A stretch of 36,421 nt of DNA, from positions 1 through 36,421 of the forward strand of contig DTUJ01000168.1 in the NCBI GenBank assembly GCA_012964235.1. The letters are read 5' to 3'. The stretch's first letter is position 1; each line of letters starts with the position of its first letter. The notes below the pieces were generated by a model. That model was not told the origin of the DNA and searched no databases. It saw only the letters and a list, made by a program, of their open reading frames with translations. Source of the DNA: Fidelibacterota bacterium (GTDB lineage: Bacteria; Fidelibacterota; Marinisomatia; Marinisomatales; UBA8229). A program made the position numbers and the translations under genes. Below are positions 8,453 to 35,226 of this stretch, piece after piece.

Positions 8453-9812
8453 AAATAATCAATCAGAAATTTTGAATGTCCAGCCCCAGGCCTTGGAGGC
8501 AGAACAAGCTGTTTTAGGGTCAATGCTCATCAGTAAAGAAGCTGTCAGCAAGGTTTTACAATGGATTTCATCAGAACATTTTTATAAAGAAGCTCATGCG
8601 AAGATTTTTTCTACGATGATTGTATTATTCAATGAAAATGAACCAGTTGACACTATCTCTGTAACCGACCGATTAAAGAAGAATAAGGAACTGAAAGCAG
8701 TTGGAGGTGCATATTACATAACCGGATTGGTTGAATCTGTACCTACCGCAGCGAATGTAGAAAGTTATGCCAAGATAGTCCTGGAAAAAGCTGTATTACG
8801 CAGGCTGATTTATCTTGCTCATGATATGTCTAAAGAAGCTTATGATGATCGCCAAACAGTTGATGATATACTGGATAGTGCTGAGCAATCCATTTTTACT
8901 ATCACCCAAAACCGTTTAAAAGGCGGTTTTAAACATATCGAACCTATTCTTCATGAATCATTTGAAAAGCTTGATGCCATTAGTTCGAAAGCGGGATCTG
9001 TAATAGGAGTCCCATCTGGCTTGATTGATTTGGATGCGATGACAGCTGGTTTTCATCCTGGTGATCTAGTGATTATCGCAGGCCGTCCAGCAATGGGAAA
9101 AACCTCACTTGCTCTTTCAATAGCACGAAATGCCGCAGTTGATCATAAGGAAAGTGTTGGAATCTTCAGTCTGGAAATGGCTGATCATCAGATTGCCATG
9201 AGGCTTCTTTGTGCAGAATCAAAGGTGGATAGTCATCTTGTCAGGACGGGCAATCTCCCGAAATCTCAGTGGAAGAATTTGAGTATTCATGTGGGGACAT
9301 TAGCAGAGGCACCTATTTACCTGGATGATTCACCCGCAATTACCGTACTTGAATTACGAGCTAAGGCCCGGAGATTAAAAGCAGAACATGATGTAAAAAT
9401 GATTATTGTTGACTATCTTCAGTTGATGCAAGGTCCAAAAGGTATTGAGAGTCGGCAGCAGGAAATTTCTATTATTACCCGCTCTCTCAAGTCTCTTGCA
9501 AAGGACTTAAAAATTCCAATTGTGGCTCTATCCCAATTGTCAAGGGCAGTTGAAAGTCGAAGTGATAGACGTCCACAATTATCGGATCTTCGTGAAAGTG
9601 GGGCGATCGAACAAGATGCAGATGTTGTTATGTTTTTATACCGTCAATGGATATATTCGCGGGAAGATCAAGACAGAGGTAAAGCTCAAATAATAATCTC
9701 CAAACAGCGAAATGGACCTACTGGAACTGTTAATGTAACATTTATTGACCGTTTTGCTCGATTTGAGAATATGTCTGTTTACGAGAATGCTGAAGCTGAA
9801 GTACCCTTTTAA
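8427..9812 (+). CDS. dnaB: Replicative DNA helicase DnaB
   Basis: PQALEAEQAVLGSML, Walker A AGRPAMGKTSLAL, VDYLQLMQ, LRESGAIEQDADVVMFLYR. The start overlaps the preceding CDS and is uncertain. Confidence 0.97.
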   Translation: MMEKQILAKNNQSEILNVQPQALEAEQAVLGSMLISKEAVSKVLQWISSEHFYKEAHAKIFSTMIVLFNENEPVDTISVTDRLKKNKELKAVGGAYYITGLVESVPTAANVESYAKIVLEKAVLRRLIYLAHDMSKEAYDDRQTVDDILDSAEQSIFTITQNRLKGGFKHIEPILHESFEKLDAISSKAGSVIGVPSGLIDLDAMTAGFHPGDLVIIAGRPAMGKTSLALSIARNAAVDHKESVGIFSLEMADHQIAMRLLCAESKVDSHLVRTGNLPKSQWKNLSIHVGTLAEAPIYLDDSPAITVLELRAKARRLKAEHDVKMIIVDYLQLMQGPKGIESRQQEISIITRSLKSLAKDLKIPIVALSQLSRAVESRSDRRPQLSDLRESGAIEQDADVVMFLYRQWIYSREDQDRGKAQIIISKQRNGPTGTVNVTFIDRFARFENMSVYENAEAEVPF

Positions 9813-31875: not shown

Positions 31876-32511
31876 ATGAACAGTCGTGAACATATTAAAA
31901 ATGATCTTTTAGAAAGAAAGATCAGCGCCATCATCAGAGCGGAAAATCAAAAAGTAGCTGAGCAGGCCATGCAGGCAGCAGTAGATGGTGGATTTAGAGT
32001 TGTAGAATTCACACTTACAACACCTGGAGCACTGAATCTGATTACCCAATTCAGAGAAAATAATGATCTAATAGTAGGTGCAGGTACCGTTATGTCATCT
32101 GCCCTCGCACAAGAAGCGGTGGGTGCCGGTGCTCAGTTCTTGGTTTCACCAGTCTGCAACATAAATGTAATACAAGAAGCGGTAAAACTGGATGTGGTCA
32201 GTATTCCGGGGACATTCACTGCCACAGAAATGGAAACTGCGCACCAAGCTGGTGCTGATCTTGTGAAATTGTTTCCAGCACCGGCGAATGTGGCAGAATA
32301 TATCCGCTTTATCCTTGCACCTCAACCTTATCTCAAAATATTCCCTACATCCGGAGTTAATCTAGACAACATGATGGATGTTCTGGATTCCGGTGCGGCA
32401 GGTATCGGTTTTGTAAGACCGTTGTTCGATCCGGAAACGATCCGCAACAAAAACTATGATAAAATACGACAACGAGCTGAGGCAATTGTGGAACGTCTGG
32501 CTTCTCTTTGA
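31876..32511 (+). CDS. eda: KDPG/KHG aldolase (2-dehydro-3-deoxyphosphogluconate aldolase)
   Basis: VVEFTLTTPGAL, VGAGTVMSSALAQEAVGAGAQFLVSPV, DLVKLFPAPA, KIFPTSGVNLDNM. Confidence 0.93.
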   Translation: MNSREHIKNDLLERKISAIIRAENQKVAEQAMQAAVDGGFRVVEFTLTTPGALNLITQFRENNDLIVGAGTVMSSALAQEAVGAGAQFLVSPVCNINVIQEAVKLDVVSIPGTFTATEMETAHQAGADLVKLFPAPANVAEYIRFILAPQPYLKIFPTSGVNLDNMMDVLDSGAAGIGFVRPLFDPETIRNKNYDKIRQRAEAIVERLASL

Positions 32512-32539
32512 AGCCTACCTTTCCGTTTCGTCGCAATTG

Positions 32540-32560
32540 GGCTCATAACCCGATGGGTGG
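32540..32560 (+). repeat. 21-bp direct repeat, copy 1 (GGCTCATAACCCGATGGGTGG)
   Basis: Exact match to 34776-34796; structured (see findings). Confidence 0.9.
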
Positions 32561-32564
32561 ATAA

Positions 32565-32786
32565 TTATCCAGTTATGGGGGATTTTTTGGTGAAAAACAA
32601 AGTGGATTTATTAAATTTAGAATTGCTAATCTTGTTACCGATGGCAAGATAATTAGATTTGCAAGAATGAAAGCTTTTGATATGATAGATAATGATGCAA
32701 ATTTAAGTAAACCTGTTAATAAATTAATCAAAGAAAGATTTAACTCGGAGTATTTAAAACTTTTCTTAAAAACAACTGTTAATTAA
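32565..32786 (+). pseudogene. 5'-truncated gene remnant (C-terminal ~73 codons)
   Basis: Open frame with no convincing start: LSSYGGFFGEKQSGFIKFRIANLVTDGKIIRFARMKAFDMIDNDANLSKPVNKLIKERFNSEYLKLFLKTTVN*. It begins at the repeat edge and its stop overlaps the next ATG. Confidence 0.45.
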
Positions 32787-34720
32787 TGGAGAAAAAAATG
32801 AATAGAAAAAAACTGGAATTACTATATTTATTAAAAACACTTTTTGCACTAATCACTCTATTTTTATTTATTGCCTCGTGCACGAAAACCTATACACCCA
32901 CAAAGTATTTAATAGAACAATTCTACAAAAACAACCGGATAGGCGGTGGTGCCTTTTCCGATGATGAAACTAATTTGCTGGTTAGGAGCAATGAATCGGG
33001 AATCTTTAATGTGTATGAAATTGATATTGCTTCAGGGGAAAAAACACAAAAGACATTCTCAGAAAAGGAATCCTTTTTTGCTATCGATTATTTGCCAGGA
33101 ACCAATCAGATTTTGTATTCGGCCGATAAAGGTGGTAATGAACTAAGCCACATTTACTTAATGAACGAAGACGGCACAACTACTGATCTTACTCCTGGTG
33201 AAAACGAAAAGGCAAGGTTTGCTGGGTGGAGTAAGGACAAAAAATCGATGTACTTTACATCTAATAAACGAAATCCCCAGTTTTTTGATTTTTATAAAAT
33301 GAATATCGAGACTTGGGAATCTGAAATGCTTTATCAGAACGATAATGGTATTAATATCTCGAATATGTCGGAAGACGAAACTTGGTTCGCCTTTAGCCAA
33401 ACAATAACAACCAGCGAAAAAAAACTGTTCCTTACAAACAGAATCGATAACTCTACGATTGAATTATCTGAAGAATCAGGCAGTTATAATGCATCGGGCT
33501 TTAGCAAGGATAATAAGTATTTCTTTTTTATTACTGATGTTGATAAAGAGTTTTCATATTTGGTGAAATATAAAATTGAGACAGGAGAGAAAGAAGTTTT
33601 GTTCGAAACCAACTGGGATGTGATGTATAGCTATTTAAGTGAAAATGAGAGGTATCGTGTCATAGCTATTAATGAAGATGGGAAAAACACCCTATTCATT
33701 AAAGATTTAGTCAATAATTCAGATGTTTATTTTCCTGAAATACCAGATGGGGATATTAAAGGAGTCAGCTTTTCCGAAAGTGAGGAGAAAATTCGCTTGA
33801 CCATTGGTACCTCAAAAAGCCCGAACAACATTTATGTGTATGATATGGGTAGTAAGGAATTGAAGAAGCTTACCGAAACTTTGAATCCCGAAATAAATGC
33901 CAATGATATGGTTGCTGCTGAAGTGGTTAGATATCCATCGTTCGATGGTCTTGAAATTCCCGCCATTTACTATAAACCTATAGATGCAACTAAAAGAAAT
34001 AAAGTGCCAGCTCTGGTTTGGGTTCATGGTGGTCCCGGAGGACAAAGTCGCACAGGTTATTCATCCCTCATTCAATATTTGGTAAATCATGGCTATGCAA
34101 TTCTTGCTGTAAACAACCGTGGAAGTAGTGGATACGGCAAAACATTCTTCAAAATGGATGACCTTAACCATGGCGATAAGGATCTTAAAGATTGTATTTG
34201 GGGAAAGAAATGGTTGCAAGCTCAAGATTATATTGATGCAGAAAAAATTGGAATTATTGGAGGTAGTTACGGTGGCTATATGACTATGGCAGCAATGACG
34301 TTTACTCCCGATGAATTCAAAGTTGGTGTTAATATCTTTGGAGTAACAAATTGGCTGAGAACATTAAAATCAATTCCTCCATATTGGGAATCATTCCGGA
34401 ATGCACTTTACAAAGAATTGGGTGACCCTACTACGGCCGATTCTGTTAGGCTGTATGAGATTTCTCCGGTATTCCATGCTCATAAAGTAAAAAACCCAGT
34501 TATGGTACTTCAGGGCGCAAACGATCCACGTGTCTTAAAGATAGAATCGGATGAAATTGTTGCAGGTATTGAAGCAAACGGAATTACTGTTGAATATGTT
34601 GTTTTCGATGATGAAGGACATGGTTTTCGCAAGAAAGAAAATGAAATTGAAGGCTATGGAAAGGTTTTAACCTTTTTAGAGACATATCTAAAAGGTGAAG
34701 GAGGAACTTCACAAAATTAA
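32786..34720 (+). CDS. S9-family (prolyl oligopeptidase/DPP-like) peptidase, lipoprotein
   Basis: Lipobox LFIASC; beta-propeller region; catalytic GGSYGGYM (Ser), GANDPRV (Asp), DEGHGF (His). Confidence 0.93.
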   Translation: MEKKMNRKKLELLYLLKTLFALITLFLFIASCTKTYTPTKYLIEQFYKNNRIGGGAFSDDETNLLVRSNESGIFNVYEIDIASGEKTQKTFSEKESFFAIDYLPGTNQILYSADKGGNELSHIYLMNEDGTTTDLTPGENEKARFAGWSKDKKSMYFTSNKRNPQFFDFYKMNIETWESEMLYQNDNGINISNMSEDETWFAFSQTITTSEKKLFLTNRIDNSTIELSEESGSYNASGFSKDNKYFFFITDVDKEFSYLVKYKIETGEKEVLFETNWDVMYSYLSENERYRVIAINEDGKNTLFIKDLVNNSDVYFPEIPDGDIKGVSFSESEEKIRLTIGTSKSPNNIYVYDMGSKELKKLTETLNPEINANDMVAAEVVRYPSFDGLEIPAIYYKPIDATKRNKVPALVWVHGGPGGQSRTGYSSLIQYLVNHGYAILAVNNRGSSGYGKTFFKMDDLNHGDKDLKDCIWGKKWLQAQDYIDAEKIGIIGGSYGGYMTMAAMTFTPDEFKVGVNIFGVTNWLRTLKSIPPYWESFRNALYKELGDPTTADSVRLYEISPVFHAHKVKNPVMVLQGANDPRVLKIESDEIVAGIEANGITVEYVVFDDEGHGFRKKENEIEGYGKVLTFLETYLKGEGGTSQN

Positions 34721-34775
34721 ATATATCGACCCTAAATCGTCTTCCAGCTAATTGAAAATAGAAGAAGTTGCGTGA

Positions 34776-34796
34776 GGCTCATAACCCGATGGGTGG
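34776..34796 (+). repeat. 21-bp direct repeat, copy 2 (GGCTCATAACCCGATGGGTGG)
   Basis: Exact match to 32540-32560; forms ATAACCC-GATGGGT-GGGTTAT with the following bases. Confidence 0.9.
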
Positions 34797-34851
34797 GTTA
34801 TTGCCCATTAATTGGTTTTTTTTATTTGTGGGCAAATTGGTAGCTTCAGAT

Positions 34852-35226
34852 ATGAAATGGATTACAAAATGTTTAAAAAATTATGCAGTTTTTAATGGGA
34901 GGGCGGGTAGAGATGAATGCACCTATTTTTTTCTTTTCGTTACTTTCATCCAGGTTTTCTTCCTTACCATTGATTTGTTAATAGGTTGGAAGTTTCAGAA
35001 CATCATTGATGGAATACCATGGTATCCTTTATTTGAAATTTCTCGTTTATTAACTGTCCTTCCTGCATTTGCAGTTGGGGTCAGAAGATTGCATGATTTA
35101 AATAAGTCTGGATGGTGGATTTTGTTGATATTTACGGGTATTGGAATTATCCCAATTGTCTATTGGTGCTGCTTTTTGAATAGCGATAAAGATGATAACC
35201 AATATGGCTTAAGCCCCACCCAGTAG
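34852..35226 (+). CDS. DUF805-family membrane protein
   Basis: MKWITKCLKNYAVFNGRAGRDECTYFFLF...GVRRLHDLNKSGWWILLIFTGIGIIPIVYW. Confidence 0.85.
   Translation: MKWITKCLKNYAVFNGRAGRDECTYFFLFVTFIQVFFLTIDLLIGWKFQNIIDGIPWYPLFEISRLLTVLPAFAVGVRRLHDLNKSGWWILLIFTGIGIIPIVYWCCFLNSDKDDNQYGLSPTQ

Follow-up and report, generated by a model that had tools for sequence, protein, structure and literature searches.

A probable tRNA-fMet-anchored tandem array of integrase-less gene cassettes in one order of Ca. Marinimicrobia

Additive flexible genomic islands (fGIs) at tRNA genes have been described in Methylophilaceae, where the repeats of fGI-2 consist of the last 20 bp of tRNA-Lys (PMC10872708), and also in Ca. 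Actinomarinales (fGI1, PMC7771536) and Alteromonas (fGI1, PMC4119200). The Dehalococcoides ssrA islands target tmRNA and carry a serine recombinase in their integration module (PMC3146451). A displaced tRNA 3' half is the hallmark of tRNA-targeted integration in genomic islands, and in the Islander survey tandems were accepted only if each member had an integrase and a tRNA fragment, which left four tandems of at least three among 3919 islands (PMC4383910). Tycheposons are described as elements of 4-200 kb, and in Methylophilaceae a tRNA-Met serves as a border (PMC10872708).

Here we analysed a stretch of 36,421 nucleotides from a Fidelibacterota bacterium (GCA_012964235.1, contig DTUJ01000168.1; this whole stretch is called the window below), which belongs to Ca. 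Marinimicrobia (Neomarinimicrobiota, SAR406), ocean bacteria without cultivated members in which the acquisition of genes is poorly understood. The window contains two copies of a 21-bp sequence, and we consider it probable that these are attachment-site-like junctions in a tRNA-fMet-anchored tandem array of integrase-less cassettes, a kind of array found only in this order of Ca. Marinimicrobia. Each unit would start with CTCATAACCCGATGGGTGGAT, usually carry one gene in either orientation, and finish with one of two right ends, class A or class B. Crossover would fall at the 7-nt anticodon loop of tRNA-fMet (CTCATAA) or immediately beside it, which would make the tRNA-fMet gene the ancestral target; wherever an element end adjoins this old target, a displaced tRNA-fMet 3' half would mark the spot. 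Having no recombinase of their own, the cassettes would be moved in trans, as in the accretion of integrase-less islands, and the likeliest enzyme would be a tyrosine recombinase whose gene converges on the 3' end of tRNA-fMet. The window would then hold an S9-peptidase cassette with an acquired recG tail, placed between eda and a DUF805 unit.

Structurally, the array matches additive tRNA islands and the accretion of integrase-less units. As in additive fGIs, the target is a tRNA gene, repeated tRNA fragments lie between successively added units, and the cargo varies among strains; unlike in those islands, the Marinimicrobia junction is the anticodon loop instead of the 3' end, the unit's own arm (GATGGGTGG) consists of non-tRNA sequence, and the units mostly consist of one gene with two dedicated right ends that are common across genera. 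The Dehalococcoides ssrA islands (PMC3146451) and the integrase-less cis-mobilizable elements that move by accretion likewise consist of tandem units with a direct repeat from an RNA gene, and some Dehalococcoides units also lack an integrase and are presumed to be mobilised in trans; the Marinimicrobia units are CIME-like in lying between related att sites without a recombinase gene, whereas they are much smaller than the Dehalococcoides units, involve tRNA-fMet, and have a tyrosine recombinase as the candidate enzyme. With the anticodon-loop islands of Islander (PMC4383910) they would share a crossover in the anticodon loop, a displaced 3' fragment and possibly a restored tRNA gene, and as in tRNA islands generally the core is identical to part of a tRNA and a displaced tRNA 3' fragment is found at an element end; unlike Islander tandems, the units are without an integrase and most are without a tRNA fragment. 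Integron arrays resemble them in that cassettes of mostly one gene follow one another in the same orientation, each with a conserved site after it, but here there is no link to IntI, no attC consensus, and the site is tRNA-derived. Tycheposons, as described, are likewise cargo elements of marine plankton that have tRNA borders and a tyrosine recombinase (PMC10872708), whereas the Marinimicrobia cassettes are far smaller, recombinase-free and arrayed. Our literature search found no paper describing such arrays in Ca. Marinimicrobia.

The two copies of GGCTCATAACCCGATGGGTGG are exact, as the original prediction had stated, and a pattern search of the window with up to 3 mismatches returned no third match. 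The pair is 79% alike, ungapped, over 48 nt (32540-32587 and 34776-34823). Each copy indeed lies shortly after a stop codon, that of eda for copy 1 and that of the S9 peptidase (34720) for copy 2, and the claimed T-runs are present downstream of both. The features of the region are as follows.

31876..32511, plus strand: eda (KDPG/KHG aldolase, PF01081), left neighbour of the array junction
32511..32539, plus strand: shortened, B-like left flank of copy 1 (CGTCGCAATTGG), a weak assignment made by eye
32540..32560, plus strand: copy 1 of the attachment-site-like core (exact repeat, order-wide family, tRNA-fMet anticodon arm)
32583..32786, plus strand: recG tail, last 67 codons, captured inside the cassette (NCBIfam NF008168, E 8.5e-11)
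32786..34720, plus strand: S9 family (prolyl oligopeptidase type) peptidase, 644 aa, cassette cargo (PF00326, E 7.4e-47)
34726..34775, plus strand: class-B right end of the S9 cassette (CCCTAAATCGTCTTCCAGCTAATTGAAAATAGAAGAAGTTGCGTGA), by DNA identity to class-B ends elsewhere
34776..34796, plus strand: core copy 2, class B (exact repeat, family member)
34797..34846, plus strand: terminator-like sequence with a degenerate E-type junction (TGTGGGCAAATTGGTAGCTT), immediately preceding the DUF805 gene
34853..35226, plus strand: gene for a DUF805 membrane protein, carried as cargo by the next unit (PF05656, E 1.7e-22)

The repeats thus enclose, as predicted, an S9 peptidase gene and a gene remnant, which we could identify as the tail of recG (75% identity over 81 bp to the recG of G129, a genome of the same genus). 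By eye, ATG at 34853 is the likelier start of the DUF805 gene, since the start of the listed open reading frame (TTG, 34768) would overlap the repeat. The left flank of copy 1, CGTCGCAATTGG, was compared by eye with GTCGCATTGG of contig G084:C70. At that locus (L174, ~8816-8998), a class-B end and a partial tRNA-fMet 3' half are followed by no more than the first ~110 bp of an eda resembling that of the window, and this piece is fused to another gene. The eda neighbour is itself variable, and broken gene pieces do occur at junctions, namely this eda start and the recG tail of the window.

The core, which resembles the scar of a recombination site, is identical to the anticodon arm in the middle of the initiator-tRNA (tRNA-fMet) gene, CGGG-CTCATAA-CCCG, and in copy 1 the loop CTCATAA (32542-32548) is fused to the cassette arm GATGGGTGG. 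Displaced tRNA-fMet 3' halves directly follow class A or class B ends in at least nine places, so the hallmark of tRNA-targeted integration is present here, at the anticodon-loop position; further contigs break off within the tRNA-fMet 3' half, which is what one would expect from its repetition. No junction joining the tRNA-fMet 5' half to the cassette arm was found, and 43 of the 44 tRNA-fMet genes seen were intact, on contigs too short to include both ends of one array; because the assemblies are fragmented, anchoring of a whole array is not visible. The missing 5' junction and the fragmented metagenome-assembled genomes (MAGs) were both weighed against the array model.

The original prediction had proposed searching the genome and its relatives for the repeat, and this search uncovered further copies, on other contigs of the window's own genome and in other genomes of the order. 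With up to 2 mismatches the core was detected in 21 of 130 genomes of the order; the 115 genomes from the phylum's other orders had no copy when up to 1 mismatch was allowed. Among ~85,000 genomes of prokaryote species, exact matches came from 14 stretches, all of them in Ca. Marinimicrobia. Such counts are lower bounds because the site searches had mismatch limits and class assignment used simple motifs. A plasmid collection gave chance-level matches only. Neither the core nor the E junction described below occurred as an exact pattern in IMG/VR viral contigs, and viral carriage was rejected on these grounds.

Two main classes of left flank, A and B, recur at the core. Class A consists of a terminator tail and TTTGTGGATTTAGGTCRG, the corresponding right end of the unit being terminator-TTTGTTTGTGGATTTAGGTCRG; class B consists of ..CTCCAGCCAATTTAAAATAGAAGAAGCTGCGTGAG and has no terminator T-run. 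The right flank of the core begins with GATGGGTGGAT and diverges thereafter. A third junction type, E (terminator-TTTTTTGTTTGT-GGGATGATGGGTAGATTTG), is found in the same arrays just before gene starts (L069:19408; L070:632, 1763; L180:457, 1438; L312:1503, 3099; L286:5547). Its lack of the tRNA loop was also weighed against the array model. In the window, an E-type match with 5 mismatches lies at 34827-34846, the stretch 34797..34846 also gives a terminator-like match, and contig G121:C215 has the same layout as window 34797..34846 (78% over 110 bp). In G044, where a tRNA-fMet gene is intact, an E-type junction directly follows the terminator of this gene.

Across 22 contigs, all 58 junctions, E-type junctions and tRNA halves included, were co-oriented; one weak opposite-strand match in L174 was left out of this count as a chance match. 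Co-oriented copies are spaced ~1-2.6 kb apart, mostly with single genes between them. Contig G125:C52 has seven junctions within 7.1 kb, and its cargo, named by eye, comprises DEAD-box helicase, phosphotransferase-like, nucleoside-phosphorylase-like and ferredoxin genes in both orientations.

Movement is shown by comparison, for example with this contig. In G084:C28, a gene X, one class-A site and a DEAD-helicase cassette form an unoccupied junction, whereas G125:C52, from a different GTDB family, has exactly two extra cassettes between X and the helicase cassette. The flanks are 97.8% (X) and 96.4% (helicase cassette) identical, and the two matches share 27 nt, located exactly at the site; homology between the two genomes also breaks at an E-type junction. 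An empty site with a single repeat, which the original prediction had proposed to look for, was thus found for the repeat family; none was found at the window locus itself, eda being undetected at the DNA level in the same-genus genomes G127-G129. The S9 gene was not found in two of these three genomes (G127 and G129), while S9 relatives with proteins 87-90% identical are present in another family of the order. The right end of the S9 cassette shares 80-93% DNA identity with class-B ends that stand behind unrelated genes in many genomes, and its neighbour is DUF805 in the window, a module Z in G128 and, in G100, a 3' half resembling that of a tRNA(CAU). The left neighbour of module Z differs too, being the S9 cassette end in G128 and a class-A end in the window's own genome. 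Taken together, these genome comparisons show a family of sites with tRNA identity at which cassettes have been inserted and swapped. The units are interchangeable and have moved from one species to another in much the same way as the cassettes of integrons, though the site is another one.

The rival reading that survives best, passive homologous recombination between dispersed repeats that shuffles neighbouring genes without a site-specific enzyme, is in our judgement unlikely. It would account for the dispersal of the repeats, for the broken gene pieces at junctions (the recG tail in the window, the eda start in G084) and for the fact that the arrays contain no enzyme. However, the common core of only ~20 bp is short for such recombination, it coincides precisely with the tRNA anticodon loop and its stem arms, displaced tRNA 3' halves adjoin the ends, and all junctions are co-oriented. 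The original prediction of repeat-mediated exchange stands insofar as a cassette bounded by direct repeats was probably acquired or rearranged there. Generic homologous exchange fits less well than site-specific recombination, since tyrosine recombinases use sites such as this repeat, which lies in the anticodon arm of tRNA-fMet.

For the tRNA-fMet-anchored array, a candidate enzyme can be named. In six genomes, genes of a distinct tyrosine recombinase family (PF00589, PF13102) face the 3' end of tRNA-fMet in convergent orientation. Their distance from it is 93-141 bp in G099, G047, G048 and G128, and 423 bp in G043, where an assembly gap intervenes; the G124 gene is found 90 bp past a tRNA-fMet 3' half that itself directly follows the class-A end of a multi-unit array. 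Comparison of these genomes shows that the family is co-located with tRNA-fMet. The copy in G099 retains the TGLR, HxFRH, H and IYTH motifs. Most copies are broken, and the site-bearing contigs tested first contained no dedicated tyrosine recombinase, G124 being the later exception; both observations were counted against the array model, as was the finding that, at the cut-off applied, several nearly complete site-bearing genomes yielded just XerC/XerD. In the window's genome the tRNA-fMet-linked recombinase was not detected, the search returning a Xer-like protein only. This recombinase may act on the sites and move the cassettes, and we infer the catalyst, the exact strand-exchange point, circular intermediates and current activity.

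A lineage-specific cassette system, in which sites made of the tRNA-fMet loop and the cassette arm are served by the tRNA-fMet-linked recombinase as platform integrase, is a possibility that we advance tentatively, and it is with similar reserve that we suggest that such a system might represent a further way of building cassette arrays, beside integrons and classical islands. The linkage of recombinase, tRNA-fMet and sites makes the mechanism directly testable in vitro, and the arrays make it possible to test whether a tyrosine recombinase that targets tRNA can give rise to integron-like arrays. The recognisable junction sequence can also be used to delimit cassettes, list their cargo and measure between-species transfer in Marinimicrobia genomes.

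Relatives of the recombinase were also observed convergent to tRNA-SeC, 145-495 bp from its 3' end (L347, L353, L355, L356), and other tyrosine recombinases lie directly beside tRNA-Gly, tRNA-Asp and tRNA-Lys genes (L243, L244, L169), the tRNA-Lys case coming from the window's own genome, where the fragment lies at the beginning of a contig.

A true integron, with attC cassettes moved by an IntI integrase, is very improbable. The co-oriented array of mostly single-gene units with a conserved site behind the gene is what such a system would produce, and 14 of 130 genomes of the order encode a bona fide IntI above the TIGR02249 cut-off, with short IntI-like genes present too. However, only one of the 21 site-bearing genomes (G087) is among those 14, no core sites occurred in the stretches examined around IntI or short IntI-like genes, where the attI-like flank differs, and the core TCATAAC departs from the attC box RYYYAAC and has no conserved GTTRRRY partner. 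With neither a link to IntI nor an attC consensus, this explanation was largely refuted. The short IntI-like tyrosine recombinases (L076-L088, 13 genomes) match TIGR02249 except at positions ~180-239, which we take to be the part holding the extra insert of integron integrases, and each has a conserved attI-like upstream flank, CAACGTCTTGCTAAACCCAATTATTGCGTTTAGCGGGTTTA. They represent a separate integron-like system in the same order; given their own, different flank and the lack of nearby core sites, they were rejected as the enzyme of the tRNA-fMet-derived junctions.

Even less probable is a family of mobile hairpin or terminator (REP-like) elements, which the original prediction had proposed as an alternative. 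Intrinsic-terminator-like sequences do occur in class A and class E junctions, T-runs follow both window copies, and the predicted small hairpins are present in both. Across 41 core copies, however, the TGG..CCA hairpin was kept in six and the GTTAT partner in five, so that structural selection is not borne out, a downstream T-run was found in 14, and class B is without a terminator T-run. What moves appears to be whole gene units and not the repeat alone, as the whole-cassette difference between G084 and G125 indicates, and together with the unconserved hairpins this refuted the family as the main explanation. An Rfam search at the repeat gave no convincing match to a known RNA family.

A chance repeat or an assembly artefact has a negligible probability: many sites do lie near contig ends of fragmented MAGs, which are often broken at these sites, but the chance expectation for GGCTCATAACCCGATGGGTGG is zero (no match in 100 dinucleotide shuffles), the repeat recurs in independent assemblies from different studies, and one contig holds up to seven junctions, which together refute a chance origin.

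Another class of right end, GTAAGTC..GATATTGTTGAC..GTCGGG, was observed before displaced tRNA-fMet 3' halves at L277, L278, L280, L282-L284 and L296 (G007, G010-G012, G108), which suggests that other families of the order harbour a sister family of elements.
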